NCBI GenBank assembly: GCA_963575645.1 | Contig: OY754468.1 | Coordinates: 8,308,001-8,372,000 of the forward strand | DNA: 64,000 bases | Reading direction: 5' to 3' | DNA from: Xanthostigma xanthostigma | Lineage: Eukaryota; Arthropoda; Insecta; Raphidioptera; Raphidiidae | In this document: piece after piece, positions 23,688 to 59,781 of the stretch | Numbering within the stretch: the stretch's first letter is position 1 | Layout: the number at the start of each line of letters is the position of its first letter | The notes under the pieces: generated by a model | Seen by the model: the letters and a program-made list of their open reading frames with translations, nothing else | Database searches by the model: none | Told to the model about the DNA's origin: nothing | Position numbers and translations under genes: made by a program

Positions 23688-24037
23688 TTACATATGACTA
23701 TTTGTTCCACTCCACGTGACTTGAGACGGTCTAGACTGCATTCTTAAAGATTCCCTGTTGTCTATTTCATCCTCGGATATGGCCGGTTCGTACGCACGAT
23801 TATCGTGGCCTTGATTATTAAACATGTCCTTGACCGACATACTTGCATTTGAATTACGGTGTCTGTACGGATAGACTCCCAGATTGTTGTTGACTCCTGT
23901 AATTCCGTACTCGTTGTGAGCACCCAAAGTTTGCATCTGCGATTTCCTTCGTTCGGCCATCACGGAATTTCTTCTCACTTCTAAAGCTTTTATCGTTTCT
24001 CGTCGCATCGTCATCTTACGAGTCAGGACAGGTGTAC
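23688..24037 (-). CDS. CHS1: CHS1 exon 16 (C-terminal tail, stop)
   Basis: Last coding exon, 115 residues plus TAA at 23690-23688. Acceptor gctcttcag. It has basic stretches (RKMTMRRETIKALEVRRNS), Asn/Ser-rich spacers and an acidic SEDEID patch. The tail is cytoplasmic or extracellular according to topology and is typical of CHS1. Confidence 0.95.
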
Positions 24038-27000: not shown

Positions 27001-30000
27001 TATTAATTAGACTATAGACACTTAAAACTATTTTAAAAACACACAATGAAACAAAACAGTCGAACAAACAAATTAAATTATTAGATCACCAAATTGTTCG
27101 ATTAACTGCAATGTATGAACGGATTAAAAATTTAACAACAACAAATTTTAAAGGAATAGTTGTTTGGACAGAGCACCAAGAATAGTCGAGGTAAGGAGTC
27201 GGAATTTTTTTGGGTTTATTTTTGCCAGAGCGCCAATCTAGAGACCCCCTCCCTCCGTTTTCGAAGTCGCTGAACACGATGGTGAGGGTCTCACGTTTTT
27301 TTTCCTCGACAACCCCTTCAAATTGCCAATTGGCTCCTCTGATTTACAACTTATTGAAAAAAATTTGTAAGAACATTAATTGTCCACAAAAAATATTTCT
27401 TTTTTTTCTGTAAATGTGATACTTTAAGAATACAGGCCTTCAAAGAGTATCATTTATGGAAATTTTCATAAATGATACTCTGGCAAAAAAAAAATACCCC
27501 TTCCGACTTCTGACCTCGACTATAAAATTTTCAACTCTGATTTTGATGTTATAAAAAAAAAATAAACCCCAATTATAAAAAAAATCCCATTGGACTTCTG
27601 TAAGCCCTAGATCCGCCCCTGGTCCAGTTATTTTCTATCCCAGACGAAATTATTTTTTCGGCAGTACAATTTGTACAAAAATTAACTATTGAAGCGAACT
27701 TCATACAACAAATTATTTTTCAAAATTGTTATTAAATTATCAATCCAGTAAAATAATCATGAACGGATTAGTAATGAAATTAGTGATTGTTTTTATTAAT
27801 ATTAGGTGATTTTATGTAACCATGAGCCATTGAGTATCTTAAACATTATTTACAAGAAACAGTCGCCTTAGTACCAATGAATTCTCTGAACACTCAGAAA
27901 AAAAAAACAATTTAAGAATCATTTGTTAATATAAACGTGCGAATTTGATTTTGAACACATAAAACACAAAATATATTCAGGTGTGTGAGTCAGTTTTAGG
28001 ACATTTTTATTAAACAGAAATCCCTAGACTGCCCGGAAAAAGAGTCATTTATGCACCACCACGTAAATAGTACTCCGTAGAAAGTGCAGATCAAAATCAC
28101 TTAGAGGCTCATTTACACGGGTAGAGTAATGAGGCAAGTACTTGATAGAGTAGAGTAACTCTACCCGTATAAACGGTCAGTAGATTAGAGTAGCGAGTAG
28201 AGTGTGTAGTAGGTGGTAGAATAGAATACTAGCAACATGTGACAAAGTAACTCTACTCTACTACTACCACCACCGTCAAAATATCCACTTGCCTACGCAC
28301 TCTACCCATGGAACGCGGTCTGATTCCGTAGTAGAGTATAGTAGGTAGGAGAGTGAGAACGCTGTCATTCCGGCAGAAGTCACGTTCTGTCTTGTTTAAA
28401 TAAAATAGTGAAAATGAAATTCACCGAAGATGAAACTTTAAAACTTGTAGAGCTGTATGGCAAACACGAGTGTTTGTGGAATTTAGGTAGTGTAAACTAT
28501 ACAGAAATAAAAATATGAGGCAAGCCGTGGAAAATGAAATCGTGGAAATAATGGCAATGGGGGGCTTTGGAATCCAACAAACACCACACCACTTCGTGTG
28601 ACCAGATTCAGAGCTGAAACGGTAGAGCGGATGGTAGAGTGCACTCTACTTGCTACTTTACTCTACCCGTGTAAATAAGCCTTAAGTACCCCTCTGGACT
28701 GTTCGCATACGGCTGCAACAATATAAAAGCAGGGGCGGCGAACGTATGGCACGCGACAGATTATTGTGGGCACGGCATTGATTGAGGTTCAAAATCGAAA
28801 TAATTAAAAATATGCTAGATGTCGAAAAAAATGACTGTCACCCATATACATTTATTCTATACTGAGCATAAGAATAAAATCGCAATAGAACCGCTAGGGT
28901 GCAAACATATACTTCTGTCATTTTTTATGCCGTAAGCACTGGCGTATCCAGGAGGGCAAAGCAAGCACGGGGGAGCCGGCTTAAGAAATTTATAATTTGC
29001 TCCCTCCAGGGCCAAGAGCTGTGTACATCCATGTTAACGTCATAGAAAAAGACAGACTTTTTGAAATAGAGATACTTTATTCAAATTGAATGCAAGTACA
29101 TCAACTAATCCTATCATTGGAGAAATCAGGGAATTACATCGAAGAAAGAGACGCAGATATATTTTCGATACGCTTTGTTGGTTCGCTTACCGCACATTGA
29201 GTAGATAGACAATGATTCATATAGTAAATTATTAAATATATGCTGTCACCAAATAACAAAATATATGAAAAATGTTCATGGTATTATCGAAATTATTCTT
29301 TTTATCTATGTTTGATTCATTTTTTTGACAACTAAATTTTCTTCACTGATTGTCGCCACGTCATGGCTACATTAAACATTTTTGAAAAAAAAATGGCACT
29401 TAGATGTAGAAAGGTTCGCCATCCCTGATATAGGGTGTTTGACACTATATGAAAAAGTTTAAATTATGTAAATACGGTTGTATCGAATAAGAAATCAGAA
29501 TTATTGGTTTGTATAAATACAAAAACGCAAGATTGATTTATTACTTCAATTTAAAAAAATTTGACATGTCAAGAAACGCTGCCCGCAATAATAGTCTGAT
29601 GTGTGACGTCAGACTTTAGTAAACACACATCTATTCTATACCAGGGGCGGGCAATCTTTTGATCGTCGGGCCACATAGCTGATGAAAATTTGACCGTGGG
29701 CCAAAAAAGCAAAAAAAAAACAAAGGTTCTTTCATTTTAGCAACAAAAATTTGGAGAGCAAAAGATCTTTTTTCGTCTGCTGTGGCCCTTGCCATTTGCT
29801 ATTTTTCTAAAATTTATAAAATGTTTCGCGGGTCGGACAAAATTGTACTGCGGTCCGGATCTGGCCCGCGGGCCGCCATTTGCCCAGGCCTGATCTATAC
29901 TAATATATAAAGCTGAAGAGATTGTTTGTTTGTTGGATAGTCCATTTATCGAGGAAGGCAATAGGCTATATAATATCACGCTACGACCAATAGGACCGCA

Positions 30001-33000
30001 CCATCAATAAAAAATGTTCAAAATATAACTCAAAATGTGTCCGTCCGACAAAAACTTTATAACGGTAACTCCGATCATCATGAAATTTGGACAAAACATT
30101 CATCTCGGTAAACTGAGATGAACGTGCGTACTTATGTCCCTCTCCCTATTTGTTCTTTTGCACCCGGCTGTAACCGGGCGGGACCGCTAGTATTATATAA
30201 AACGAAGTCCCTCCACCGCGTCTGTATGTCTGAACACGATAAACCGAAAATCTACCGAATGGATTTTCATACGGTTTTCAACTAATACAAAGAGTGATAA
30301 GCGACGAAGGTTTCTGTGTGTAATTTGTAAATATTTTGTACAAAATGGCTGAAATATGACGGTATTTTGTCAAAAAAAAAACTGTTTTCGTACGCTTGCA
30401 TGGCTAACGCTGGCCAAATCTTTAGATATGCATCAAAACAATGTACTTTGATAGTTCTGCTGTGTAGATGAGAAGATCAATATAAAATTTCCAGAACAGT
30501 TTTGCACCCAGATGAAACCGTCTGACAAACATCAACGTGTTGAAGTAGAGAGAAAATGCTAGTTATTCTATAATATGCTTTATCCTAAGGTTATACAGGT
30601 GAGTCAGACCACCCGTATCAGTCGTTTTTTTCGAAAACGGTTAGTCGTAGAGAGTTGTGTCAAAAATCTGTATTATAAAAGCCCTAATGAAGAATCGAAT
30701 GGTGATATTTTTTCCCCCCGGAAAGGTCGGCTTCCCTGCTAGTTTGCTCCGGAATGTTCAGAACTCCGGAATATTAAATGGCACGATAGGTCGAAAGTGG
30801 TATTGTTGAAAAGATCTTTAAAAAATAAGCAAGTTTTGTAGGACATTTTTTTTTGTTACTGCCACCCCTGTTAAGTAATATTCGTTTGAAATTATTAAAT
30901 TAACATGTAAGAATAACAAACTTAATTTTAAAAGTTGGCATTTAAAATCTAGTTACCTAATTAAACAATGTCACAAATGTTCAAACTGTCTTCAATTTAC
31001 TTCTAAACACTGCGGAGCTTTTCTAGATAATATGTTATGAGTACCTGGAAGTATTTTCCGACAAAGAAAAAACAATTGCAATTATTGAAAACTTATTGTG
31101 ACATTGTTCAATTAGGTAACTAGATTTTAAATGCCGACTTTTTTGTTATTCTGACATGTTAATTTAATAATTTCAAACGAATATTACTTAACAGGGGTGG
31201 CAGTAACAAAAAAATATGTCCTACAAAACTTGCCTATTTTTTAAAGATCTTTTCAACAATACCACTTTCGACCTATCGTGCCATTTAATATTCCGGAGCA
31301 AACTAACAGGGAAGCCGACCTTTCCGGGGGGAAAAAATATCACCATTCGATTCTTCATTAGGGCTTTTATAATACAGATTTTTGACACAACTCTCTACGA
31401 CTAACCGTTTTCGAAAAAAACGACTGATACGGGTGGTCTGACTCACCCTGTATAATATCACGCTATGACCAATAGAAGCGGAGAATCAATGAAAAATATA
31501 ACTCAAAATTTATCCATCCGACAAAAACTTTTGAACGGTCATTCCGATCATCATGACATTTGGACACAACATTCATCACGGTAAACTAAGATGAACGTGC
31601 GTACTCACGTCCTCCCCCCATTCGTTCTTTTGCACCCGGGCGAAACCGGGTGGGACCGCTAGTAAAAAAATAAAACTGAAAATACGAATACTTGGCTAAA
31701 ATATAAAATTTTGAAATTTTTTTTGAAAAGGAATTTGTAAAATTAGTCTCGAAATTAATATTTTGCTTGACACCTTCCTTCGTGACTATTCTTGTGTAAT
31801 ATTAAAAAAAACTTAAAAAATATTGAATTTTTTGCTTTACTTCCCCCCAGAAAAAAAATATCTACGCCCTTTTAGGCAAGTCACTTCTGAGACGATTTAA
31901 AGAAAAATGAAGTATATGGGCTATGTGCAGGGAGGCGGAGTTACAAATTTTTCGATGCGAGCGTTTGTGATGAGCACTAGGGGAAATGAGCAATGTTTAT
32001 TAAAAGTGAAAATAGTTATAATTTTATGAAGTTTTTTTAATTACAAGTAAAACACGGGCAAAACTAAGCGATCTGGAAATGCTTGTTGTGTTCCGGGCTG
32101 TTGCGCGGATGGCGATTTAAGTAAAATAAAAACCATTGGCACCCTAATTTGACGTTCCGCTGTCCGTGTAAGCAAATTAACATCAGTTTTCCTTATTACG
32201 TTTTTTTTGACACATCATGGCCAACTAATGTTTTTGACTTATCACCTTAGAAACATGTCGCGATTTCCATAAAAAGTGAGTTCAATAATAATAATAATAG
32301 GTTTCGTGTCCCGCTTGAAGCAGACCTAACGATATAATTATGGGAATACATTGATCTCTTGGTCGTCACTACAAGCAACTTTTACTGTATACCCCATCTC
32401 CCCGCTAACACCGGTCCTGAATCAAATGCGGTTCTAAGATAAAGAAGAAACGAGTGTCGTATTTCATGGTATGCATAAATGACTCAGACAAAAAAAAAAT
32501 AGACGGCATGCGTGTAATCTCGTGCATGTAGGTCCCACAAAGAAATTAGTCCTCGATGCAAGAGTCCATAATTTCTCTGATAATACCTCAGCCGTTTCCT
32601 CTATATAGGTGATATTGGTCTTGATTCCCAATGGCCAATCGACATGAATTTGATCTTTATTCAGTTGCAGTAAAAACACGACCAATACAAATAAAGCATT
32701 GAACATGAAGAATGCAAATACAGATTTGTTGCGCAACTCTATTAAATCAGCTGCAATTCTTGCCTGTAATTATCAGAACAAAAGCACAAAACAATTAGAT
32801 TTATTATAAATTAGGTTTTGTGGTCCGACAGTTATTATGGTTGTTGTTGTCTTACGCTTTTTATCCGTTGATCCAATCATTGCCGGGGGCTTTATTCTCA
32901 GCAGGTAACACTTATAAAATACGTTCAAAATAATACCTCAATTGCTCTAAAAAATATCAACCTGAAATAAGTATATAGCTAAATATCATGCCAACTACTT

Positions 33001-36000
33001 AAAAAACTATTTCTGTAGTAACTTCATCTACAAGCGCCAAATAGCATAGTACCTATAGGATTTGAGGTGAAGAATGTAGAGTGTATTAATTAAGTTGATT
33101 TTTTCTTTTTTAACAGCGTGTAGAAATCAAATAGACGAACAAATATTTCAAGTAACTTTTTTATCAAGGCTAAAAAATAAGAGAGAAACAGCCTTTCAAA
33201 GTTTTATTAAATTTTATCAAATTTTGTGGTTGGTCCTGGCGTTGTTATGTCACTTAGGAATATTACTGTTTTATTTAATTTTCTTTTGCTACAGATCACT
33301 GCAACAACAACAATCGTTTAAAAGGCAGTAGCGTATAAGCAATTTCTATGAAATGTTTACCCCTAACTATATTTCAAATTCTACGAAAGCAGATGATGAA
33401 ATAATTTGATAGTTGTTGCTGATCGAAGCATGATTTTCACAATAATACTATGTGAAAGCGCAACTACAATAATTACTGATTATACTATATTTTAGCAAAA
33501 AAATACGTAAGTAACTGAAAAGAAATTTTCAATAATCCAAGTCCTCAAAACTGGAATATTAAAAATTTAGAGGTAACATACGAGCGTTTCAATTTCAGGA
33601 TGGTCACAAATATCTGAAAAACATCATTGACTTTTCCAATGCCCAAAATACGGTTTTCCGAAACATTTTTCTGTTTATCATAAGCTTCAAGCGAACATGT
33701 ATTTTAAATTTTATTACAATTAAAAATGTCGGCGAACGTTAACCATTTCTTGTCAAAAACTATCGTTTGGTGCCGGATAAAATGGCAACCTATGTTTTGA
33801 ATAGAAAAATTAATGTTTTCGATTTTATTCTTGACGCGGATAATATTTCTGATTTTTTCATGATCTGTGACCATCTCGAATTAACAAGATTAGTACTTTT
33901 AACTAATTTCTAACAAATTTTGCTCTGCAAATTAATGGCATCTACAGAGAATGATGAAGACATTAGCATCCAAAAATAATATTTGAGCCGAGAGGTAGTA
34001 TTTTCAAAGTAGGTACACATTGAGGCTGGGGCATTAAAAGGACAACCATAAAACAAATTGAACCACAAAACCACTTTCGTTAAGCGTTACCTCCTGAGTA
34101 TTTCCATCAAAGGTGATATTTGTCTTGACACCAAACGGCCACTTAATATGGAGTAATTCTTTATTCAGTTGTAGTAGAAATACAACGAGGACAAACAATG
34201 CGTTCAACATAAAGAACGCAAATACTGATTGATCACGAAGGTCTTTCAAATCTTTTGCAATTCGGGCCTAAAAAGTGGCAGCCATTTGAATTAAAATTAT
34301 TCAATAAAACATATTATAATAACTGGTGATGGTCGCTCATAAAAATCTGAAAATAACAGTCTCATATTTGTTTAAAAAATTGTTAATGACAATCAAACTC
34401 AATACAGTGTCCCTCAACCTTGAGCGTTTTCAAAGTAAAAAGTCGCAGACCCTTAGATAAGCGCGGGTCACACTAGGCTGGTTGCCAGCCGCGAGTTGTG
34501 GAAGCCGCTACTGTCAGCCATCAATCAACTTGGTGTGAGCATAAAATTCGCCGCTGGCGCCGCCAGCCGACGAGTATTTATCAGCGGCTGTTGAAATTAG
34601 ACATGTTCTATTTTGGTAGCCAGGCAGCGGCAACTAGCAGGTCACGTGACTCACTCGGACCCGCTACCACCAGCGAGCAGCATCGCAGTCTGGCCGAAGC
34701 AGTGCATCATAGACGAGTGAACCATCACGTGCCACGTGGTTTATGTTCGATGTATGCAGTGACCGAATTGGCAGCCACTACTCGCGGTAGACTAGCGAGT
34801 TGTAGTCATAGTGTGACCGGGCTGCCCGCCGCTGCTTGCTGGTGCTACTGTCCGCCGCTGATCAGCAGCGGCTGACAAGCAGCCTAGTGTGACCCGCGAT
34901 TAGATCCATATACTTAATCCTCCTATACTGCTAGTACGAGTCTAGAAAAGGATGACGACCCAACGGTGCAGACATACATAAGTCTGTCTCCGTCATTTAC
35001 GCATCAAATGTTATGAGCAAGTCCGAGAATGGAATATGAACGCAACGCTTACGCAAAACGAATCGAGTAAAAATAAGTGAAATATAAGTATACAGTTGCT
35101 GTCTCTCTTGGTGGGCAACACTTCCACTTACGGGAATTAGCAATATAGGAGTGTTAAGTATATGTTTAGATCAACTTCTTTTCAAGGGCGTTGTTCGGAC
35201 GCTGGGTATTGGCTGAGCTACATCCGGGAATCCTGCGTAGTTTGTTCCATAGAACTCCTTATATGATTATTTTCCATCACTTTTTAAATTCGAATTAAAT
35301 TTATAAATCTATAATTTTTATTAATATTTCTCATGGACCATAGATTGAGAAACACTGAAATAGACCATGTTCGAACATGTTGTGACTAATTAACCACAAT
35401 CGTCTGTTAATTTTGAAACAGTTGACTAGAATTTTTTTAATACTGAAATAATCTTTTTCAGCTAATTTTTAGCCTTTAGATCTAATTGATTAATAAACAG
35501 AATTTATTTAAACGAATTTTTTAAAATTTAGTCATGCTGGTCTACAGAAAGGTAGATCCACAATCTTTGACCTTAATGTAGCAAAAGTAACCACCAGTTG
35601 GCAAACAACTGTTAGGTGATTAATTTTGATAAACTTAGTCATTGCAAAGGCAATATTTTCTTTTAAGTAAAACTTCTTCACGCGCGGTATAGTAAATCGT
35701 ATTCATGCGACTGACCATGTTACTGAACGAAACGCAGCACCATCACTCCTCTACGCCGTTGAGATAGAGTGGGACGTTGAGGAGGCATCGATTATTATAC
35801 GCAAGGGGCGCGTTCATTTATTATGCAAATCGTTTTTTTTTACTTTAACATCTCATAATAAGAAAATATATAATACAATTTCCCCTCTAATCAAACGTAA
35901 TGTAAAAAGGCGATATCAGAACGTATAACATATACTCTATTAACGAAGTAGATGCAAATAAATCACAAAAACAGTGCAAAATGCTGTTCGAATGTGCCGA

Positions 36001-39000
36001 CCGACCAATCACAACTCAAGAAACAAAGATACACGCGTAAACGGCGCACATGTATTACGTATTAAATATTAATTATTACACCAAACACGTATAGATAATT
36101 ATGCTCATATTTTTTATATGTTAACTTCTCCTCCTCAATTGATACCTCTTACTTAATAAATGAACAACCAGCTTGGGAGAATGAATACGATCCGATATGT
36201 ATCTACCGTCGACGCGATTAGAAGTTTCACTTCTGTGTAATGTAAAACAGGCGGTCTGATTTTAATAACACTAACCTGTTCCACAGGATCTGCATCAATA
36301 GGAAACAGATACTTGTCAATAAGGTCCTTCCAAAATTGTAATTCTGCGCCGGACAAGAAGTCAACTTCACCCTTGCGTATCTCTGGATCTTCTATCCAAT
36401 ACGGATTCGTCAAATGATCTCTTTCTTCTTTTGGAGATGTTGATACGGTTTCACTGTCCGTGTCTGTGCGCTGGTCAGCTTCTGCTTCATTGACGGCACT
36501 CAGATGATGATCACCTCTGGAACTAGCCGACATCGTGCGACGCCTCTGACCTCCATGAGGTGGTTCGATCATTCTGAAACAAATTAATGCCAAACTTGTA
36601 ATACCAGTGCAGTAGCTAAGGTCAACAACTCTTCACTTGATACTCATTAATACAAATCGAATTGCTAATTTGATGAATTGCACCATCATCTCCAAGGAAG
36701 TACTAAACTTTAATTCTAATAATGATGTCTTCAGCATAAAGTAGTGTTGATCCAATAGAATGTTACGATGAAGGAAGGTTTTGGTTGAGGATCATAAATA
36801 AATAAGCTTTACCAATGATGCGCTAGTGGCCAACGTTTCGTTAGTAAATTGGCCAACGTTTCGAAACATTTATTTTCATCTTCAGGGCCTCAAGCTGGTT
36901 CTTTCGACCAGCTTGAGGCCCTGAAGATGAAAATAAATTTTTGTGTAACATTGGTAAAGCTTATTTATTTATGATCCTCAACCAAAACCTTCCTTCATCT
37001 AATAATGATCACAATCTCCATTTTCCGCGCGTATTTTAATTTTCTTCTACGTGCTTCTCTAAATAATCTGCGATGTTATCGCTTAAGAGTCAAAACACTG
37101 TTATTAGGTCTATAACTATTGTCAAGTTGGCAGACTGACTGTGGATTATAAATGCTCACTAGCGTCTTAGGTTTAGTTAAAGAATACAATACACCAGAAT
37201 GACATACGTGCTTTTCAAGATCTTCTGCGATGTTGACTGTTATTAGGTTCTTAACTATTATCAAGTTGATAAGTAGTTTGTGGATTATAGACACTCGACA
37301 ACAGAGGTCATCAACGTCTTGCTATGTTAAAGCGTTTTCTCTTTAAAAATACCCCAAAACGACATACATCGACTAATCTTCGAAAAGGTCACTCCATACC
37401 GATTCATCGCCCATCAAATTTATCCAAAGAATGGAATTATACGACACGCGTAGCCATTTTGAATCCACAAAAGTATCCCCAGTATTTGTTCCAAAACTAA
37501 GAACTTTCACATACCTTTCAATAGCATCCAATCGTTTATTGAGTGTATCCAAAGAATCAGCAATGTGCATCAACTGTTGTTTTTCTCCATCGCTCTTGCC
37601 GTGCGTACAGAACATACATTTGAACAGACCAGCGAAAGATAATTCTAGACTGCCTTCATCATCATCGTCAGCATCTCCTTGACCACCTTGTAAGAATCCA
37701 AGAAGGGATTTATTTTTGGATTTCTTCTTTGAGTCTTCGGCTCTCTTCTTTTCTTCTTCTAGCTCCTAATAGTGTACATCATGTGTTAATATTTACAATA
37801 TAGATTATAGACGGTCATTAGCATCGACAAAATATTTTCATATTTTTTAAAATCATTAAATTAAATTAGTATAAATCATGCAACCCCGTACCTGTTTTCC
37901 AACCTTACTTTGTACTTCCCGAGTACCCCAAGTGACGTTATTCATATTAAATACTGAATATATCATCAGCAACAAGTACATGCTCGGTACAGTGACATAG
38001 TAGATGACGCCGTAAGGTAAACAGCCAACTTCTTGAGGATGAAAAAAGGCTGTTACTATCAGCTCCCCTGCCACCATGAAGAAGAATATAGAAGAAGGAG
38101 CCATTATTCCATCCTCCTCGATTTGCAGCATTATGCCAACCAGGACGGCCATCATCACCAACCCGTAAATAGCGCTTATCAACCCTGCCATGAATAACTG
38201 CCACCGAAACATGCTAAATGTTAGTTATTGCAGAGCAAACTGTTTATAAATAATATTATAGTGTTTTGATAATGCAAATAAATATATTGTTTTTTTAATT
38301 GAACAGACATCAAAATAACTGGTCCAATGCGAGCTGAACTCATGTTCACAATCTTAGGTCATTGTCAAATTTTTTGACAATTCTTTCTGCAACCCAGCAT
38401 TAGGATTTATGAGTAGGTGGTCCTGCATACTATGAGTGAGATTCAATACTTCCTTTTAATTTTATGATCAATTAGTTTCGGTGATAAGAGAGGGGGAATG
38501 ATCGATCTTCGTATATTTTCTTTGATACCCCGATAACAAAATTAATGCAAAAAAAGTGTATTTTAAGATATTTTGCAAAATATTTCTCGGGACTAATTTG
38601 TTAAATACCTACATATTTAATATTCAGTATTGATCACAGTGGGAAGCTGGTCGTGTGGACCTCAAGGGTCGCACTTGTAGACTTCCAATAAACGACCCAC
38701 CTCACGGTTTGTTAGTATTTTAATCAGATCTAATGGTCAATAATTTACAGACCTTCCACCACCTTAATTATTATAATATACCTCTCTTCCAAGAGGCTCG
38801 AAGCAGGTTAATTCTATAGACAAAACGTAGTATTGGGCGATTATGAATGATATAATCGAAATATTTCGATTATGGCCGAATAATCGATCATTCGATTATG
38901 GCAACCGAGATATCATTCGCTTGAATCGATTATGAAATATGAAATGAATACTAAATCCCGACACAGTACTATTGCTATGTCCACTGTCGATATTACCTAA

Positions 39001-42000
39001 TGTGATATATCGATATATCATTCGGTTCCTGCATCAAATCAAATTCCTAAAAAATTGTTTTTATGACATTAAGGATTTTTTAAATTTTAATGTTTAACTC
39101 ATTATGTAAATTGACGATGTATCCATCTAGGGCATAACAAATATATTTCTATTTCTATTCGATCATACCAGGGATTCCATTATTAATATTGTGTTAAGTA
39201 ATATTAAAAAATCGAAATTGCAAAGTTTGAACATAATTCATATTCGATATTTTAAATGATCATTCGCTTATACTGTAAAAGTAAATAAAACGAAATTAAT
39301 AATTGCCAAGTCTGCGCATCATTCATAATCGATAATTCGAATGATCATTCGAATCATTCATAATCGATAATTCGAATGATCATTCGAATCATTCATAATC
39401 GATAATTCGAATGACCATTCGAATCATTCATAATCGATAATTCGAATGATCATACGAATCATTCATAATCGATAATTCGAATGATCATTCGATTATAAAA
39501 ACCGATTATTTTGATTCATTCGATTATTGAAATCTATCGATTATGCCCAACACTAACAAAAAGTGATGCCCTTCACCAACACATAAATTGTTGCATAAGA
39601 AACTGCTGAAAATGATATTTCTGCATACACCATCGAATAGAATGAAATGCTAGACAGTAGTGATATAACCAAATATTCGCATATTTTTTAACATTCGCAT
39701 GTTAGATGGGTTTGGTGCGCGAGTAGTGACAGTTCGAATGTGAACAAAAGTGAACGTTTACTGTCTTTGAACAGAACACACGTTATAACACCATATTGTT
39801 TGTGGACGTTTGCCCATGTCGTCCACGTGACGAGATACTGTTTCCTGATTGGTTCTTGCTCAAACCAAACAGAGAAACAATCACGAAAAATAGCCCTGGT
39901 TCTAATTTGAAATACCAGCTTGTAATCACGCACGCTAGCCCGCGTGTACCTACGTCATTTCCATCCTCATAGCCGCGCAAGTCCCAAAATCGATTCCAGG
40001 GACTACACCAACCTCGTGTGCAGCGGTCTTCAGTATTAAGAGTCAACCTACTACCCAGAATCACTACAAATGTGTGCGTGCGACTTGCGCAGTTGTCAAA
40101 TTTTAAACTTGAACAAATGACGCCAGATTTCGCATTCGAAAAAAGTCTAAAAATTGGCATTCGTTACATCACTACTATACAGATTCCTAACAGACACCGG
40201 AGCAGTCCGTCACCAGCAAACAAACTAGACAGAATATGGACAAACCTTCTTCGTTTTCTTAGTCTGTACTTCACGGGTTCCCCATGTGACGACATTAAGG
40301 TTGATGATCGAATACAAAATAAGCAACAAGTACATAGAAGGTATTGATAACAAATATATGATGCCCGGAACGATACACCAGAACTCCTGTGGATGGAGGC
40401 AAGCCGCTATAAACGTCGTACTCGTTAACGCCGTCAAGAAAATGGCCGACGGAGAACCCATGCCATCCTCGCCTAACTGGAGAGCCGTACCGACTATTAC
40501 GGCCATCATGACCAAAGCGTAAGCTGTTGACAATATCTGTGCCACCAATAACTGGCGCACAAAATACACAAAAACATTACAAATACATAAAGGACTTCAC
40601 AAAAACGTCACAATGCGATGCAATAGAGTTCTATCGACAGATGCGGATCTGGGTTTTTCGGGCCCTAAGGCTTATTTTTTTGTTACATTAGGAATCTTTA
40701 AATTGGGTTTTTTAAGTTATTTTGAATAGCATCGAAATCAGAGTTGAAATTTGGTAACTAGATACTGATAATCATTAACTAATTTACTTATCATTAACTA
40801 TGTAACAAACCGGGTCGTCTCACCTATTGAGGACTGCTGGATTGCACAGAAACGCAGCACGAAAGATAAGACGATGCATGTACAACGGTAGGGGAGTCGG
40901 TAGTTGACAGTGAAAGTGAGTGGAGGTGATTTTGGGCCGGGTGGAGTATTTCAGGGTGCAGTCCAGGAATCCTCAAGGTAGGATCTACCAATGTAGTTTT
41001 ACTTTATATTACTCTATTATTTAGTTTGGTTTCTGTTATCCCATATTTACCTAATTATTACTAAACTAGTACATAGAAAGATGTATTACATTTTAACTAG
41101 CCAGGAGGGCAAGAACCCTAATAGCACGCTACCGAAATTTAGGGGTCAAAAACCGAGCGTGCAACAACTATTTTTTACTGTAGGTACAATAAATGCTCAT
41201 TGTTATAGTGCCCGCGGTGAGAGTTGAAGCCAGATACGTCATCAATAATATGGTAGTGAACGCCTACTTGCCCGCAGACAGTGGCGTGTGGAATAAATTC
41301 GACATATCCATTTATATCGGTAGAATAAAAGTAACCACTCGACGCACATGAATCTTCGAAACAGCCAATATCAAGCTAGAAGGCGGGCGCAATGCGTTCA
41401 CGTCACTATGACGCGGTGGCTTCATCTTTCGCCGCAGCTATTCTAATAAAAGTGTATTAAAAATTTATGATAAGAAATCAATTTATTTGGGTCTTGGCAC
41501 TTAGGGTCCAGGGCTAAAGCCTGATTAGTTACTATGCAGATCCGCCTCTGCCCACCGAAGCTTCGTCTTCGGCCACTCTCGGTAAAAAAATGCATATAAA
41601 ATCAGAGCGAAGATTTTGGCGATGCCGAAAGTTGAATTTACTTAAAAATCGAAAGAGTATTATTTTTTTAAATCACAACACACAGTTATGCAAACAAAGA
41701 ATATGAAAAAAACACAATAAATGGAAAATGCCAGACATATTACCCATACTCACAAATGAGCCAGACTATTTTTTCTTAACTTCACTCACTAATACAACTA
41801 TTTTTATCACTGGAAAAAAAGTGCAGTATATTTATACTTTCTAACGCATTTTCCGCCTCAAACCCATCAGAACCCCCCCCCCCCTCCTACATATATATGA
41901 ATTTTGCTTATAATAACAAACCGAACAATTCTATCGGTGTTTGCTGACTGGGAAAATAAGTGCCGAAAATCTTCACTGCCTACTGGACTATATACTCGGT

Positions 42001-45000
42001 ACAGAATAAAAGTATATGGTTTACATGAAAGACAATTTCACATACCTGTATATTTGATTTACAAGTGAAGCATACCAACATGAAAAACAGTATAGGAATT
42101 ATGTTGTAATAAAAACTTGTCCAATTGTCAATACGAAAAGCTGCCACGAAAGCTCCCACCAACATAAGAAATATAGTTCCAGGACCTAATATTGTACCGC
42201 CCATCAATAGAATCTAAAAAAGAAAAACAAAACATTAGATATTGCATTTGTTTTACACAAAATATATTATAACACAAATATTATTAAACTTGCCTGGTAG
42301 AAAATATAAGGCAGTGAAATATTGTCATTGATTTTGATAGTTCGTTTTGAATCCATAAGCAAGTCCATAATATTGGCGATAGTCGAAGGCACCCATCTTC
42401 TTCTCTGGTTGTAGAACTCATTAAATCCTTCAGGACAATGGGTGTAAGCGTCGGAAGCAGCGCAATATTCTACACGATATCCTCGCTGTAAAAGCAGTGT
42501 ACACAACCATCTATCTTCCCCTGAAACAACAAAAAGATTCCTTCGCTCAGATTGGGGCTTACACACCGGAATTTCTAGATTATGTAATTCCAGAATTTCA
42601 CACAAACACTTTAAATATGTCAATTCCGGGCTGCAGAAATAAATATTGTAATTCAGGAGTCAAAGAAATCGAAGTGTTTCAAATTATAATTACTAGTAGA
42701 TAATGTTGATTTTTTGGTTGTTTCAACACTCAACACTCAAAACTTTATTCAAAGTTTTTATCAAAAAAAAAAAAAATTTAAAAAGACATGTTTATTCTCC
42801 GTTCAATATTTTTGTACAACTTTCAAGATATCCAAACTGAACTAGTTTACGGAATTCCGAGAGCCAAGAAGTTCCCAAATTGAGAGGACAATCCGATTTC
42901 GGAGGCCTTAATTCAAATTGTTCTCAGTAGAGCATAACAGAAAATATTAAACATGGTTTTGGAGATTTTCGAAAAGATTTTTGATAATGCGAGTTTTGAA
43001 TATTTTTTGGTGCAACGTTTTGAAAGTCTTGGAATTGTGTTTTATTGGTTAATCAAAGCCACGCTAACTTCCATAACATTTAATCAAATAATAGCAATAA
43101 CCAAGACTGATAATTCGGAAGGGCATTTTGAAGTCCTTAAGACATTGTCTTCAAGTTTTTGAAACAGTATTTTGGTGGCTTTAAAATATTCTTTTTAGAG
43201 TGTTGGTAGAACATTTTGAGTGTGTTTTGGGTTTATTTTGAGCCTGTAGGCATACCTTGATCGTATTGTACATAATGTCGAGCCTGATCTGAGCGAGTCG
43301 TGTATTTAGCCATAACGTTGTCATCCATCAAAGCTTTTCCTCTAAACAACGAGAAACATCCAGGGCTACAAAGTACACAACCAATCATATGTTCGGTGGC
43401 TTTTTGCAGCCAATGACCAATTGCGTATTCAAACATTTGATACCACACCATCGGACCTATAAATAAACAATCATAATAATTTATCTTTCCAAAATGAAAT
43501 ACTTTGCTACGTATAATAGGTATCGATTATTATGAATTAGCTGTTCTTATCCGTCCATAAATGGATGAACATTAAAAATACATACCAGATCCAATTGGAT
43601 GAATACGACCGCAAGCAGCTCCTAGATTCCTGTTCTTCTTCATCAAATCAATCAGCAATTGCACGGCATGAGGCTGGAAATCAATATCTCCATCCAACGT
43701 AAGCAAGAATGTATTTTCCGCCATGACATCTTTCCTATCAACGGATATGGGTAGTTCCATCAACCTGTGTCCCAACAAATAGTACATGTACATAACTTGC
43801 GACCATCGTTTCCTGTGTCGAATCAACGATTTATCTTTTAAGTGGGCTATCATTTTGGTCTTTCCTGGTAACGTCCAAACTAAACGACCACCGTAAGGCG
43901 TTGGATATTTCTTTGGAGCTCGGATATAAATACGCGTTTGATGCACGTCTGTTGCAGCTTCATCCAGCGTTTCAATGAGGAGTTTTACGAATCGATTCAC
44001 TTGGTTGTCGCTGTCGCTGTGATCAGATATTTCAAACGCGTCATCGAAAAATATATGAGCTGAAAATAATAAAGTAAACTTTTTAGTTTAACTTCTTCGT
44101 TTTCATAAGAACCGTTACTCACTCCTTATAACAAAAGAAATTCCTCTAATGATTAGTTTCGTTATAGAGTTTTGATTGATACATTTTTTAAACCCGAAAA
44201 CAACCTTTATCTCGTACAGGAAGGGTTATTGAAAAAAAAGTTTCGGAGAAAAGTTGCAAGGAATCGAGGAGGGAGAATATTGGTGAAGTTTTTTTTCATT
44301 TGGTAGAGGTGCTTCCTCCGAAATATTAAGGTCATCTCCACTTTTTTAAATAGGATCTCGAAAACGGGGAGATTTTGCTGGCGATATGAAAAAAATCACC
44401 TGTTTCGGGGGTGAGATTTGGCCGGTGGAGGGGTTGGTGAGAGTCATCAGCAATATTTAACGAGAGAACGAAACTGAAATAAAAAACACTTGCGAGGAAG
44501 AAGAAACTGAGCAGTTAGAATCTAGAAAATTAGACAAGAGTACACGCAAGAAACATAAAGAAAAAAAAGACTTGAATGTTAGTGAAGATGGCACATCAAA
44601 AAAAACGGAAAAAATAAAGCCAAGTGAAGATAATGAACAAAAGATGAAAATCGATTCCAGTCATCAATCGTCAGAATTTACCGTGCTCATCATCCTCAAA
44701 AAAAGGTAAAAAACATTTTTTTTCGGAAATGGAATAATGTAAAGCGCGTTTAACCCCGTTTGGGGGTGGTTTTTAGTCGGTTTGGAGGGTTGCGCAGCCC
44801 CAAAGAGAAATTTGAATATCACCACCGTGTTCAGAATCCTCGAAAACGAAGGAGAGAGGTAATCTCGTTCCGGCTCAAAATATTTACATGTTCGTCCGAT
44901 TCACACACGGCACTAGCCCATCAAGTCAAAAAATGTTTGGTACAAAAGTTATTTTCTTTGACCCAAATAACAAAAATCCGACATAAAAAATATGGGTTCC

Positions 45001-48000
45001 TACTTAGAAAACTGTAAGTGATCTTGATATCTCGGAGGCACCTCCATCAAATAAAAGGAAATCGCCAGTGCAACTTTTTTTTCGAAACTGTTTTTTCAAA
45101 AGCCCTTCTCTATGAAATAAAAGGGTGTTTGGTTTTTAAAACTCCACCTTGTATAATTGAATGTTTAATACTTACTTTCGAATTCATAATAGTCGGGATC
45201 GACAACTCTCAAATATTTCTGTGCGACTCGTCGAGCGCACTGATCTTCATCCAATCTCAGAATAGATTTCAAGAATTCCATCATCTCATCTTTCGTTTCG
45301 TGCCACATGGTAGCACAAGCATAAATTCTCGTAATCTTATCAGATGATTTAACAGACTTAGATGCAGAATTCTCCGTGTGCACTGATATCGTTTCATAAT
45401 AATCCTCACCCTTTTCCTTTTCAATTTCAGCCAAATCTTCAGACTTAACTTCAGCCTGGTCATCTCTTCTTCTGTTTAATCCTAACGACTGATCGATCAA
45501 TAAAGATCCGTACATTGGGGACACGAATAACTTTTCAGTTGTGGCTAAACGTTCGCATTTTGGTGTCCAAATATGTAAAGTTATCCATGTTTGCGACAAA
45601 AGCCACAATAACCAAACCCACGCTTGTTGATAAACAATAAATTCATCCAAGAAATATACAGGAGGACTTTCGAAGAAGAGATAGTTCGGTATTGTGTTTT
45701 GGAAGAAACAAGGATCGCCGTTTCGTAGACCACATGCCGCAATCAAGAGAGATATTGAAACGGGAACGGTTAAGTTTACGGGAAATGCATAACTGAAACC
45801 TTGAATAAGAATTTTACACGCGAATTTTCCGAATATGTAACATAAATAGGCAGCCAAAATTTGAATGATAAGAACGTATATTGGCGTATTATAGTCAGCC
45901 TGAATATTTTGCTCTTCTCCAGTGTAGATCATTTCTGTTATGTCTGTTTGGGTCGTACTGGTTAAAATTGGTTTTATCTGGAAGAAAAGTAGTTGTAAGT
46001 ATATTGTTGTGACTTTTTGCGACAACATTAAAGCGCTCCACACACGGTGCTTGATTTCGAGCTTGCTCGCTTGCTAGATTCGCTGGCAGGCAGCGCAGCT
46101 AATTTGAAGCTTATTCATTTGCTTGATGCTCTGCTAGCTTAACAGTTAAATAAATATGCTAGAAGTAATTCATCGTAGACGAACTCATTCACAATAAACA
46201 ACAAAATGTTTTATGTTAATAATAATTAACAAAAAATATCAAAAAATTGCGAGGGCTGCCACACAACTACTGACATTGCAATGTGTTAACAGATGACTAC
46301 GTGACAAAATCATGATCCGAGAATGGCTCAACACTTGAACTAGCAGAAAGTTCTGCGTGAAAAATAGCACCGCACCTATCACCAAAATATAGCAAGCAGC
46401 AGAGTCATCAGTACGTCATGATCCAGCAGCGTAGCGTGCAAAGCTGCCATCAAGACTCCGAGCAAGCGAGCGAGCTCAAAATCGAGAATCGTTTACGAGG
46501 CATAACTTTGTTTTATTCAGTGTTTCTATGAACAAAATTCACAAAAGAAATAAACACAATTTATTTATTAAAACACTTCGTAGAAACAATCCTAAATCGT
46601 CAAATATTGCAAAGGAAATTTACCTCTTTTACGACAATTTTATGTGCACCAAATCCTTCAGACATCAGCGTAAAGAATTCTGCTGCACTCTCTCCTTTTA
46701 ACATGATTATAACCAATGTTGTGCACAAAAAACAAACTATCTTCCAAACAGATATAAAGATATAGGTGAAGTATCTAGTTTGTTTGAGAGCCTCCTTAAC
46801 TTTTGCTAAGGACTTCATGAATGGTAATGGTGAATGGCCGGACACATAATTCTCCCACCAGCCGCACGAAATACATATAATGGCAATTGGAATAATCCAT
46901 AAATGAGGATGGTTCTTTTGTTCCAAGATTGGCCAAACAACGAACCCTGTAGCTTGGGCAGCAATAGCTGTGAGATCAATTAACACCTTGATGAACCGTT
47001 TTGATTCCTTATTACTTCTGCTAAGAAGACCTAAATAACAAAAACAATTCTTTTAATTATATGGAAAACAATTTTATCATAATTATTGATTTTGTCAAGA
47101 TATAGCTGTTGAGAACAACATTATTGGATTTCTTTAAAGTATATATCTAATACCATCAGTTTTTTAGAATTTTTAGGTGTACTAGTTTTAGAAATTAAAG
47201 AAGTTTACCTGATGCGCTTTCAAAAAAACTACGTAGCATCAAAGTTTGAACAAATTAGTTTTCAAATCTTCAAGAAAAACTTTTTTAAATGATATGTATA
47301 TACTTTATTTTGGGTACCAAACTTTGACTTATCTCTCCTTCTCATTTTACAGGAAAATATTGTTTAGGGTCTTACTGTTGGAATATGCTAAATTTAAGCT
47401 TGATACCTTTATTTAGGCTCAGTGCCATAACTGGGGCCATGCCCAGTCACAGGGCGCAGAAATGACCAGATTAGATTTGGGTTTTCAAAGCCGCAGTTGT
47501 AGAAGCTCGCACCGAGCGCATAAAGGCTAGTTACGGCACTGTTTAGGAAATTCGACAGAGACAGACGTACGGACAGACGGACAAACTTTTCTTTTCATAA
47601 TTATACCTAATACTCCGGGTACGAAACAGACGCAATTGGTAAGCATCGCGCCTTTTACAACGTCCAAATCTGGCAGTATGACGTAGATAAGCAGCGCCAA
47701 GCCTATAGTATGAAGCGTTTCAGCGAGGAATACGACCAGAAAATGCGCAAACGGCGGTTTGCTCCACGATTTGAAGAAACAAATCCTCATTGAACGGATG
47801 AAAGCGCCGACTTCCGGTACCATGAAAGCGAAAAATAAACACCACATCCACGCTATTCGTTCAGAATCTGGCAGTGTTACTACGAACTGTTTTTCTCGTC
47901 CTGAAAAAGAAGAGTGGAAAAGACGTCTTTAATAAACTTTTTTTGGTAGCTATTTTCGTACAATCCTATATTTAATGTTCTTCTAGTTTTATTGATGGAT

Positions 48001-51000
48001 TATAACTTAGGAAAAATGATCCTCTTACCGAATTCTCTATTACAGTAAGGCAATGTTCGGGTTTTGTTGAGCTGTGACGTCATGAATAACATCGTGCCCT
48101 TGGCGATGACTCCCGATCCAAGGACGATGACGAATGTGAATAAGTAAGATATGAGTTTGAGTATTCTGGCAGTGATCTCGAAACAGCGCTGATTGGCCAT
48201 GGAGCCCGAGTCCACTTTCCGTGGCGGATTTCTGAAGACGTCCCATGATTTCGTTTCTTGTACTGTTCTTTGGCTGCAATAGAAGACAAAGAATTCGTTA
48301 ATGCTTATGAAGCACATTAGATATAATAATAGTTTAAATAAAAAAAATATATATAATAATAATAATGCGTTTAACGTCAATTTCTCGACTTTAGGTCATA
48401 ACAGACGCCATTCGCACCATTACTATTTTCCACACTTTCCGTTATTTTCTACATTTTTAAACTTCCACTTAATTAACAGCAATGGTCGAATGAAGGACAT
48501 ATAAGACATTAGGATAAGGTAGGAAAATTTTGAGCATAGGAGTTTGACAGGTAATCGGACATGACCTTGAATAAGGAACCATCTCTATATTTATCTGGAA
48601 TTATTGAGGGAAACCATGGAAAACCTCAACAAGATGGCCGGTACAGGAATTACCGTTTCTCGGCGAGAGGCAGCAGGAAAAAGCCGAACACAGCTTATCG
48701 TATACCACACGTCACTCTTTCATTTGATATCCATGTCAAGAGTGTTGTAAAGAAAACGGTAATTCGCCATCTTGGGACGTCCGCCATATTGGATTTATGC
48801 ATTGACATCGAACTTAAAGTTCAAAACGCTAGCTTAACTATATTTAGTCTGAATTTGATTACAAGTTTTTACACAATCTAACTGACCGACTGACAAACAT
48901 GGCAAGTTAAATAAAAGCTTGTAAAAAAGGGGTGCGTCGGTTTGTGGACACACGGCGGAAGCTAAGTTCACTTCGTATTTATTTATGAACTCACCCAGAA
49001 TTTGAAAAAATATATGTGTATCCATATTGATCACTGATCATATTTTAACACAAAAATTTCATATTACACTTTTGCTATTTTTATGTTTAAGTTATATTAG
49101 AGTGGAACCTGTTTATAATGAAAATGCTACAAAAGAAACCGTGGTACGTTTAAACATGAAATTATTAAGCCAAATAATAAATGTCGTTTTTTTAATACAA
49201 ATCAATCACCGACAATCTCATTCACAATAAAAATATGATAATTTCATTCACATTAAAAATATTATACACTTCACGTCCAAAGTTTAGTTTGTAAAAACAG
49301 TGATATAACATGCATTAATAATTCGCTTTAGCCGTTAAATCGCTATAGCCTTTATAAAGTAGTTCTCTGTTGATTCTTTTAAATAATAAAATCAACCAGC
49401 TACAATTTCATTCACAATAAAAGTATCACACACTTCAAAAAGTCCAAAGTTTCTTTCGTAAAAACAGTGATATAACATGCATTAATAACTCGTTTTAGCC
49501 GTTAAATCACTATATCCGTTAAAAAGTAGTGCTCTGTTGATCTTTAAAAAAAATGAAATCAACCAGCGACAATAAAAATATCACACACGTTTAAAAGCCC
49601 AAAATTCCGTTCGTAAAGACAGTGATAAAGCATGCATTAATAATTCGCTTTAGCTGTTAAATCGCTATAGCCGTTATAAAGTAGTATACTGTTGATCTTC
49701 TCAAATAATAAAATCCATCAGCGACAATTTCGTTCACAATAAAAGTATCACACACTTCAAAAAGTCCAAAGTTTCGCTCGTAAAGATAATGATATAACAT
49801 GCATTAATAAGTCGTTTTAGCCGTTAAATCACTATATCCGTTACAAAATAGTGCTCTGTTGATCTTTAAAAAAATGAAATCAACCAGCGACAATAAAAAT
49901 ATCACACACGGTTAAAAGCCCAAAATTCCGTTCGTAAAGACAGTGATAAAACTTGCATTAATAATTCGCTTTAGCCGTTAAATCGCTATAGCCGTTATAA
50001 AGTAGTTCTCTGTTGATTCTTTTAAATAATAAAATCAACCAGCTACAATTTCATTCACAATAAAAGTATTACACACTTCAAAAAGTCCAAAGTTTCTTTC
50101 GTAAAAACAGTGATATAACATGCATTAATAACTCGTTTTAGCCGTTAAATCACTATATCCGTTAAAAAGTAGTGCTCTGTTGATCTTTAAAAAAAATGAA
50201 ATCAACCAGCGACAATAAAAATATCACACACGTTTAAAAGCCCAAAATTCCGTTCGTAAAGACAGTGTAAAGCATGCATTAATAATTCGCTTTAGCTGTT
50301 AAATCGCTATAGCCGTTATAAAGTAGTATACTGTTGATCCTCTCAAATAATAAAATCCATCAGCGACAATTTCGTTCACAATAAAAGTATCACACACTTC
50401 AAAAAGTTCAAAGTTTCGCTCGTAAAGATAATGATATAACATGCATTAATAATTCATTTTAACCGTTAAATCACTATAGCCGTTATAAAGTAATATATAC
50501 TGTTGATCCTCTTAAATAATAAGATCAACCAGCGACAATTTCGTTCACAATAAAAATATCACACACGTCAAAAAGCCCAAAATTCTGTTCGTAAAGACAG
50601 TGATATAACATGCATTAATAATTCGTTTTAACCGTTAAATCACTATAGCCGTTGTAAAGTAATATACTGTTGATCCTCTTAAATAATAAAATCAACCAGC
50701 GACAATTTCGTTCACAATAAAAATATCACACACTTCAAAAAGTCCAAAGTTTCGTTCTTGAAATCAATTACATTACTTTTTAGCCGATCGCAATAACCGT
50801 TATAAAGCAGTACACTTGATTATCGTAGATAAAATTAACCGCCGTCAATATTGTCTTTAAACGACTGTATTTGTACTAACAATAATCTGAGTACACTCTT
50901 GTAAAGAAATTTCACTTGAATGTGAATAACTGGAGATTTGGCGAAAGGATGACCGGAAATAAACAGGCGATACTTACCCGGAGAAAGAATAGATCGGAGT

Positions 51001-51030: not shown

Positions 51031-51314
51031 AGCACAGGTATCACTCCGATACCAAACACTAAACTAACTAACCGAACGCTTTTGGAAGCGTTAATTGCAA
51101 ACTGACGGACTATGGTGAAACTCGATTACTTAAAATGCACATAATGTGTAGGTACTGTCTGTATACATAAAATAATAGACACAATATAACGGCGATTTCT
51201 TTACATTTTTGCTTTATTAAGTGAGGATACGTTGTTACCTATTACCTGTAAAAGTGTAAGGATGTTACGAAATAAATATAATTATATGCAAATATGTCAG
51301 GCATGTATAACTCA

Positions 51315-51683
51315 CAATGCCGGATTTAGAGTCTGGAGGCCTCGGGGCCACAAAGGAGTGGAGGCCCCCTGGCCCCAAATTATTTTTCAAAAAAATGGAC
51401 AACTGTTTCCACTCTAGTTTTCCAATAAATAATTTATTGTGAAACCAAGTATAGATTCTTTTATTATTTAACAAACATATAAATATAATCGAAACTAGAA
51501 TTGTCTGAAATTAAATTTTAGCGTTAACGAACGGAACTTTCCGAGCTTTTTTCGCCGAAAAATATCAAAGGAAAAGTTGTTTACTAGTGTTTACTAGTCT
51601 AAATTTGATTTTTTTTTTCGAAGTCTATTGTGGGGGCCCCTCTTTTGTGCAGCCCCGGTTGCTCACCCCTAAATCCTGCCCTG
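51315..51683. mobile_element. hAT MITE upstream of CHS1
   Basis: The ends are caatgccggatttagag and the complement of cagggcaggattta. A perfect 8-bp duplication ataactca lies at 51307-51314 and 51684-51691. Reverse-orientation sister of 13205-13582 (shared ggaggcc, ccccctgg and cacaaaggagtgg words). Confidence 0.88.
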
Positions 51684-51699
51684 ATAACTCATCAATGCA

Positions 51700-53930: not shown

Positions 53931-53934
53931 TAAT

Positions 53935-54170
53935 CTATACTAATATATAAAGCTGAAGAGTTTATTTGTTTGGTTGAACGCGCTAATCTCTGGAACTACT
54001 GGTTCACATTGAAAAAAAAATTTTATTGGATAGCCCATTTATCGAGGAAGCCTATAGGCTACATAATATCACGCTACGATCAATAGGAGCCGAGCATCAA
54101 TGAAAAATGTTACAAAATGTATCTCAAAAATACCTTTTATTCAGGTAAAATGCCGTAACTACATGATATC
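53935..54170 (+). mobile_element. Lep1-type Helitron, 5' part
   Basis: Starts tctatactaatatataaagc; has ttgaacgcgctaatctctgg, cccatttatcgaggaagcc and tcacgctacgatcaataggag. The 3' end is lost near the tRNA-like insertion at 54194. Confidence 0.75.
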
Positions 54171-54193
54171 AATATTAGGTCGTACATTCACAA

Positions 54194-54266
54194 GCCCGGC
54201 TAGCTTAGTCGGTAGAGCTTGCGACTGTAAATATCCGGGTTGTGAATTCGAGTCCCACGTTGAGCG
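54194..54266 (+). mobile_element. tRNA-Lys-like SINE head (tRNA pseudogene)
   Basis: 73 bases with gcccggctagcttagtcgg at the 5' end, a T-arm gaattcgagtccc, and an acceptor complement gttgagc. These match the tRNA-Lys(CTT) frame. The anticodon loop reads ctgtaaa (GTA, not CTT) and its stem does not pair, so it is not a working tRNA. A (ta)n-T-run tail follows, typical of a SINE. Confidence 0.6.
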
Positions 54267-55569: not shown

Positions 55570-55794
55570 GTCTTGCTGATGACTAATCACTGAGATTCTA
55601 AAAATGCTCTGAACAAATTTAAAGCTGTGATCGCAAATTACATTTTAGTACTGTTTTTATTAAGTATGATTAAGATTTAAGCTTCACAAAACTTGGCTTG
55701 TTGCTTGAAAATTTCAAACAACACATTTATTTGTCCCAAAAAGTATATAAAATAACGTGATATATGTCAATATTTTTTTCCTTATACCTTAATC

Positions 55795-59766: not shown

Positions 59767-59781
59767 ATTTAATTCAATTAG

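Follow-up and report, generated by a model that had tools for sequence, protein, structure and literature searches.

A second pair of tandem, putatively alternative exons in the sole detectable chitin synthase gene of an insect genome

The window, i.e., the whole stretch of 64,000 nucleotides that was analysed, contains a class A-type chitin synthase gene (Table 1). Two of its exons matched the Pfam family Chitin_synth_2 above the cut-off, and the translated product carries the EDR and QRRRW motifs, plus WGTR after the membrane cluster, which are among the marks of insect CHS1. Screens by motif and acidity, covering the window and the 20 kb beyond it, did not reveal the 5′ exon or exons of the gene. 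Genome searches found neither a second chitin synthase gene nor a CHS2, leaving this gene as the sole one detectable. No Rfam match was obtained in the window at the gathering score and, as expected, no relatives of the QRRRW exon were confirmed in the viral and prokaryote collections.

Table 1. Positions in the window of the chitin synthase gene and of the exons and introns discussed
Feature	Position	Strand	Description
Class A-type chitin synthase gene	23688..48273	(-)	gene model; exons labelled 3-16
Exon 9	42046..42213	(-)	168 nt; donor CAG/gtatgt; two hydrophobic segments (by eye) upstream of the swap
Exon 10a	40246..40551	(-)	306 nt, 102 codons; canonical version; probable two membrane helices and IF3-type helix, WGTRE
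Intron 10a-10b	38198..40245	(-)	2048 nt; 35-bp satellite array inside at 39318-39492
Exon 10b	37892..38197	(-)	306 nt, 102 codons; putative alternative version
Intron 10b-exon 11	37766..37891	(-)	126 nt
Exon 11	37515..37765	(-)	charged region (ELEEEKKRAEDSKKKSK) after WGTRE; other class A enzymes have the coiled coil here
Exon 13a	34091..34267	(-)	alternative exon of the known 59-codon type, copy a
Exon 13b	32587..32763	(-)	alternative exon of the known 59-codon type, copy b; 41/59 identical to 13a

The original prediction had placed two intact exons of equal length, 10a and 10b, between exons 9 and 11, and we confirmed that both have GT-AG splice sites, are in phase 0 at both ends and are open throughout. 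The copies align without a gap over 102 of 102 residues, 52 of which are identical (51%; BLASTP E = 4e-39), and the joins of exon 9 to either copy (42046 to 40551 and 42046 to 38197) and of either copy to exon 11 (40246 to 37765 and 37892 to 37765) are all in frame, as had been described. Likewise, WGTRE is kept in both copies, with nine of nine residues identical at 88-96. In the gene model, all combinations of 10a or 10b with 13a or 13b read through from exon 3 with no stop before the terminal one, and judged from the reading frames four isoforms are possible from the two pairs. Inclusion of both 10a and 10b was also found to preserve the frame, as predicted, yielding 1640 codons including the stop, and omission of both leaves 1436 codons in frame (each tested with 13a).

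Exon 10 aligns to chain residues 659-746 of the oomycete enzyme PsChs1 (PDB 7wjm and relatives), ending in the SWG motif, with E = 0.003 for the two-exon profile and E = 0.016 for 10a alone, and the identity between 10a and PsChs1 over the aligned part is 27% (23/86). By homology with PsChs1, whose structure is solved, exon 10 probably encodes two transmembrane helices, the interface helix IF3 and the SWG loop. Thus, the earlier claim that three membrane segments are exchanged is right in that membrane segments are swapped, while their number is probably two, plus IF3. The differences between the copies are concentrated in residues 39-52, where 1 of 14 positions is identical compared with 51 of 88 elsewhere (Fisher p = 3.6e-4, for a segment picked after the alignment was seen). 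This segment corresponds to the second membrane helix, which is nearly all replaced in 10b and there contains a glutamate, E45. The description of the membrane faces as changed was therefore roughly right, except that the change is not spread but concentrated in this segment. A predicted structure of 10a, made from two sequences, had a pLDDT of 56 and a pTM of 0.35, too poor for a fold search; its helices at 2-28, 34-52 and 54-100 are consistent with the expected layout and carry little weight.

We then compared the two copies for coding constraint. Identity between 10a and 10b was 59% at first, 79% at second and 37% at third codon positions, and third positions that are near random beside second positions that remain largely identical point to long coding constraint. 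The NG86 method gave dN 0.43 and dS 2.37, and maximum likelihood gave dN 0.65 and dS 11, both from one pairwise comparison in which dS is saturated and the contributions of the two copies are not separated; the pattern is like that of 13a and 13b, the accepted pair of the same gene (dN 0.22, dS 2.21). Among 3000 neutral simulations started from 10a and run to the same nucleotide divergence, 1.7% were stop-free and the top protein identity was 41%. Judged from these comparisons, the likeness of 10a and 10b is due to common ancestry and long coding constraint, not to chance. Genome searches with 10b (E <= 0.001) and 10a (E <= 10) returned these two places and a third match to 10a at chance level (E 1.7, 34% over 47 residues, with two stops). 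Further weak matches were also put down to chance, both in the window (E 2.1-8.9) and in the genome (E 0.28 with one stop, E 0.17 with two). The two copies are thus adjacent homologous exons of equal length and phase, with splice sites and coding constraint, as in mutually exclusive tandem duplicated exons, and the sequence supports the proposal of a second tandem alternative pair in this CHS1 gene. In our judgment, 10a and 10b are probably an old tandem duplicate whose two copies would serve this one gene as mutually exclusive alternatives.

If, instead, 10b were a recently silenced relic, it would be a once working alternative exon that is no longer spliced and has not yet decayed. The weak pyrimidine tract of its acceptor (9 of 17) speaks for such a history, although the constitutive exon 11 likewise has 9, and the pairwise constraint, being an average over all the time since the copies diverged, cannot tell when constraint ceased. 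Against it, 10b has an intact frame, intact splice sites at either end and, 24 nt upstream, an intact branch-point-like CTAAC site, and by sequence scoring its donor (5.7) and acceptor (5.3) lie inside the ranges of the gene's constitutive exons (5.0-11.0 and 1.0-17.8, respectively). Any silencing would have to be recent, because in neutral-decay simulations, which assume 0.12 indels per substitution, the exon stayed intact by luck in 13.5% of cases at 0.06 substitutions per site and in 4% at 0.10. The GC3 of 10b (0.51) falls among those of the gene's other exons (0.34-0.57). Moreover, 10b does not resemble a decaying copy, since it is as near to PsChs1 as 10a is (22/86 versus 23/86 identical; BLOSUM62 sums of 100 versus 101). 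Over a shorter match to a Candida chitin synthase (7stl), 10a did better than 10b, with sums of 66 and 51 and with 13/50 and 12/50 identical. The published CHS1 primer sites of Sogatella, Spodoptera and Drosophila fit 10a better than 10b, which marks 10a as the canonical version. Taken together, we regard a silenced relic as unlikely.

Mutual exclusion of 10a and 10b is not implied by the frame, because the exon combinations remain in frame, and in all combinations tried there was accordingly no exclusion by reading frame or NMD. Steric exclusion by a short intron was ruled out, as the intron between the copies is too long, and intron RNA pairing that might enforce exclusion gave no signal, the best duplex being reached by 4 of 12, 7 of 12 and 7 of 12 shuffles (12 per intron pair, in 2-base blocks that preserve dinucleotides only partly). 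An identifiable mechanism is known for only some mutually exclusive exon pairs, so that its lack here is not disqualifying. The frame would also permit a non-exclusive use of 10b, in which transcripts carry it together with 10a or lack the two altogether; such an in-frame cassette would give modified or dead enzyme and so set the enzyme level. If the assignment is right, the number of membrane helices is even, and the topology downstream would stay unchanged in such products. Duplicate channel helices and WGTRE in one chain are, however, structurally unlikely, and equal length and phase together with long coding constraint usually mark exon exchange, not addition. The double-skip product would be dead, given that Drosophila Kkv without WGTRE is described as inactive and retained in the ER in the available part of PMC9894549. 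We therefore rate cassette use as improbable, and from homology and the Kkv result we infer that 10a and 10b are mutually exclusive.

No report of a 10a/10b-type pair was found in papers on CHS1 variants, exons, CHS2, the resistance site or the motif, a search that covered few subscription journals. This agrees with the earlier statement that the pair is apparently undescribed, and 10a and 10b most likely represent a real, undescribed alternative exon pair. In the available parts of PMC6355952 and PMC9631950, the published CHS1 variants differ only in the 177-nt exon, so 10b, if widespread, would have to be rare or overlooked. That exon forms the 59-residue pair CHS1a/CHS1b, described in planthoppers and others (PMC6355952, as far as available), which shares with 10a/10b the design of equal-length, same-phase neighbouring exons, each coding for a membrane segment. 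Its counterpart in the present gene, 13a/13b (34267-32587), lies downstream and swaps one C-terminal membrane segment, whereas 10a/10b, the more diverged pair (51% versus 69% identity), would swap helices that adjoin WGTRE and the catalytic domain. In lepidopteran CHSA, exons 2a and 2b are N-terminal, tied to alternative promoters and located outside the channel. They resemble the present pair in being a second alternative splicing site in a class A chitin synthase, one called Lepidoptera-specific in titles cited in PMC7240487.

The original prediction assumed a moth, which we rejected on the basis of the gene for USP. In moths and flies, USP has diverged. The USP ligand-domain exon of the host scored 211 bits against 4ozt, 200 against 1z5x and 190 against 2nxx, which we take to be from the louse Bovicola, Bemisia and Tribolium, and 112 and 108 bits against 1hg4 and 1r1k, presumably from Drosophila and Heliothis; vertebrate RXRs scored 185-201 bits against the same exon. 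As one marker gene, this RXR-like USP would exclude flies and moths and by itself names no order. Chorion_1 had no match in the host, nor in the controls, and carries no weight; EcR was not recognised among the host's hormone-receptor loci. The lack of a second chitin synthase gene is also reported for Hemiptera, and the insect is probably hemipteroid. A single chitin synthase gene is no proof of Hemiptera, since the Asian longhorned beetle also has one according to the available part of PMC6444547. A very improbable descent of 10b from a CHS2-type (gut) exon, kept in CHS1 by conversion or exon capture after CHS2 loss, would fit the failure to find CHS2 in the genome and the loss of CHS2 in Hemiptera held by some authors (available parts of PMC9631950 and PMC6355952), but the Drosophila Chs2 primer site fits 10a and 10b equally (7/11 each, 4 of the 11 residues being the kkv primer tail), and nothing was lost if CHS2 is instead a duplication in certain beetle and fly lineages, as stated in the part of PMC6444547 that was available.

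With 10a and 10b as exclusive alternatives, inclusion of 10a would give the standard enzyme, and splicing of 10b into the mRNA, presumably regulated by tissue or stage, would give an enzyme that has a rebuilt wall but shares its catalytic core and its WGTRE ER-exit/activity motif with the standard one. In this wall, the second membrane helix would be nearly wholly replaced, with E45 inside it, and the interface helix, which keeps the helices in place above the active site, would also be altered in its first half. Such a swap may tune chitin extrusion, partner contacts or ER exit, not catalysis, and would offer a natural test of the role of the export-channel helices apart from catalysis in the same protein. 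Should the host be a hemipteran, the swap would also be relevant to the way in which chitin is diversified in a group that has one chitin synthase gene. More speculatively, and on balance doubtfully, an insect with a single gene could use splicing to obtain chitin synthase of a second class, in which 10b would change both the channel wall and the interface helix to serve a chitin structure of its own, with a CHS2-like role and a different residue at the known inhibitor site; if true, splicing would do what duplication of the CHS2 gene does in other insects.

As an essential enzyme, chitin synthase is a major target of insecticides. In the portions of the literature available, the benzoylurea/etoxazole resistance site of CHS1 is given as I1042 in Plutella, I1043 in Culex, I1056 in Drosophila and I1017 in Tetranychus, and I1056 of Drosophila Kkv sits 20 residues before W1076 (PMC5601912 and PMC9894549, which may number different isoforms). 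By this numbering, the site maps to residue 70 of exon 10, which is Ile in 10a and Val in 10b. Because the exon that would be swapped contains a known resistance residue, one gene may make synthases that answer differently to chitin-synthesis inhibitors. The Val of 10b is not among the residues found in resistant alleles (M, F or L), and Val at this site is reported in ticks (V1047) in the available part of PMC13219254. A resistance-type F in 10b, suggested when the site was first placed at the Ile pair of YSIINLN (V and F in 10b), was rejected once the numbering led to residue 70.

One chitin synthase gene was found on the minus strand of the window, and its model was rebuilt from exon 3, the first exon recognised, to the stop codon. 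In this model the spliced frame was open over 1537 residues in all four isoforms, which combine the tandem alternative exons 10a and 10b with 13a and 13b, the downstream alternative 59-residue pair of the known type. The positions, length and phase originally predicted for 10a and 10b were confirmed. The two encoded segments aligned without gaps, with 52 of 102 residues identical, and the frame was retained when both exons were included and likewise with neither. Splice-site scores of 10b fell inside the range of the gene's constitutive exons; its acceptor pyrimidine tract is weak (9/17, the same value as in exon 11), and CTAAC lies 24 nt upstream of the exon. All junctions of the model were GT-AG but one, the GC-AG donor (CAG|GCAAGT) of an exon labelled 8x, which carries EDR and QRRRW and with its intron directly precedes exon 9. 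The intron separating 10a from 10b holds a 35-bp satellite (5.0 copies, 97% match).

Features of the chitin synthase locus in window coordinates
Feature	Position	Strand	Remark
Tandem array	49240-50768		upstream of exon 3
Gene model	48273 to 23688	minus	exon 3 to stop codon
Exon 8x	42520-42294	minus	GC donor
Intron after exon 8x	42293-42214	minus	
Exon 10a	40551-40246	minus	306 nt, both ends in phase 0
Satellite	39318-39492		between 10a and 10b
Exon 10b	38197-37892	minus	306 nt, both ends in phase 0

Identity between 10a and 10b at the three codon positions was 59/79/37%, with the third near random and the second strongly conserved. By the NG86 method dN was 0.43 and dS 2.37, and since dS is saturated the ratio serves as a rough guide only; the 13a/13b pair gave a similar pattern with a smaller protein change (dN 0.22, dS 2.21). 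When 10a was evolved neutrally to the observed nucleotide divergence, the exon remained stop-free in 1.7% of 3000 runs, and protein identity was at most 41% in all of them. Exon 10b might alternatively be a relic, which is conceivable solely with a recent loss of function, because in a simple simulation assuming 0.12 indels per substitution a functionless exon stayed intact in 52% of cases after 0.02 substitutions per site, in 13.5% after 0.06 and in 4% after 0.10. The two copies were equally close to PsChs1, the solved oomycete chitin synthase (22/86 identical residues for 10b, 23/86 for 10a); in a shorter Candida match 10a scored above 10b (66 versus 51), with 13/50 and 12/50 residues identical. 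No third copy of exon 10 was detected in the window, where other matches had E values of 2.1-8.9, or among the best candidates scored genome-wide, where the one other match had an E value of 1.7 and 2 stops. The reading of 10a/10b as an old, constrained exon duplicate is thus a real observation and well supported at the sequence level, and its use in RNA is predicted.

N-terminal variants of CHS1 occur in moths. The CHS1 variants described in the accessible literature text involve the 59-residue exon only, and in a psyllid two isoforms differ by one alternative exon (PMC9631950). In agreement with the prediction of an apparently undescribed pair, no report of a 102-codon exon pair appeared among the matches listed from openly accessible papers; the pair may already be present, unremarked, in some automatic genome annotation. 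Published CHS1 primer sites from planthopper (PMC6355952), moth (PMC9604260) and Drosophila kkv (PMC12431666; the initial residues of this primer are a Chs2 tail) were, once translated, nearer 10a than 10b in 6/6 cases, by margins of 1-3 residues over 5-12, and the Drosophila Chs2 site gave a tie. Judged by these primer matches, the form described so far corresponds to 10a, and 10b is new.

A profile of both exons aligned to PsChs1 chain residues 659-746 (E = 0.003). In that enzyme the stretch leading up to SWG forms a bent interface helix, IF3, which topology programs call a membrane span; IF3 touches TM1-TM4, the SWG motif sits in the IF3-TM5 loop, and the W742A change abolished activity (PMC9556331). 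On this homology, at 27% identity, exon 10 would therefore encode a first membrane helix at about residues 2-28, a second at about 34-52, IF3 at about 57-87 and, last, the loop with WGTRE, so that of the three membrane segments originally proposed to be swapped two would stand as membrane helices and the third is better read as IF3. The two membrane helices would be TM3 and TM4 if exon 9 carries TM1 and TM2. A structure model of 10a had low confidence (pLDDT 56) and was consistent in helix layout only. As the PsChs1 dimer contacts join TM2 with TM5, a dimer interface of that type is not expected within exon 10.

Differences between the copies were uneven: residues 39-52 keep 1/14 and 57-70 keep 4/14, against 13/18 at 13-30, 9/11 at 71-81 and 9/9 at 88-96, and 10b places a glutamate (E45) inside the second helix. 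Drosophila Kkv requires WGTRE for activity and ER exit (PMC9894549), which would explain why both copies retain it and why a product skipping both would be dead. Kkv/Chs2 chimeras fused at WGTRE lacked activity and stayed in the ER (PMC12431666), suggesting that diverged synthase parts are not freely mixed and that a working 10b would have had to stay compatible.

Most likely, one gene makes a regulated choice between 10a and 10b, which, combined with that between 13a and 13b, would give up to four enzymes. No feature forcing exclusion was found in frame, spacing or RNA pairing, so exclusion, if real, would depend on regulatory proteins. The swap to 10b would affect the interface helix and the route of export and leave the catalytic pocket unaltered; for this reason we favour a role in making a particular chitin structure, by way of changed extrusion, assembly or trafficking.

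A second chitin synthase (CHS2) was not found in the genome with family, catalytic-exon, long-protein or C-terminal queries. Since the same search recovered 10b at 51% and 13b at 67% identity, any CHS2 whose catalytic exon is conserved would have been expected to appear, and its absence from search or assembly falls short of proof. The USP receptor exon of this genome is RXR-like (best insect chain 211, vertebrate RXRs 185-201, the source organisms of these PDB chains being presumed). The chromosomes are large and uneven in size (84 to 18 Mb among the ten listed), whereas moths have many small, even ones. Together with the RXR-like exon and the single detectable chitin synthase gene, this showed the moth frame of the original prediction to be wrong and pointed to a hemipteroid insect. 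Hemiptera are reported to have a single chitin synthase gene without CHS2 (PMC9631950, PMC6355952, PMC12431666); the assignment is not firm, because one gene is reported for milkweed bug and bed bug but also for Asian longhorned beetle (PMC6444547), and because vertebrate RXRs come close to the score of the best insect chain.

Insecticide resistance changes (I1042/I1043/I1056/I1017) fall in the exon 10 region (PMC9604260, PMC5601912, PMC7219787, PMC13219254, PMC12112526). Placed from Drosophila numbering (I1056, WGTRE 1076-1080), the site is residue 70 of exon 10, Ile in 10a and Val in 10b. Ticks have Val there, yet are impaired by etoxazole (PMC13219254), and an altered inhibitor response of the 10b isoform is therefore possible but not indicated.

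Motif and acidity screens that covered roughly 36 kb on the upstream side of exon 3, including 48274-64000, recognised no first coding exon; perhaps the first intron is very long or the N-terminus unusual. The tandem array upstream of exon 3 has a period of about 167/321 bp, with 4.6 copies of the 321-bp unit.
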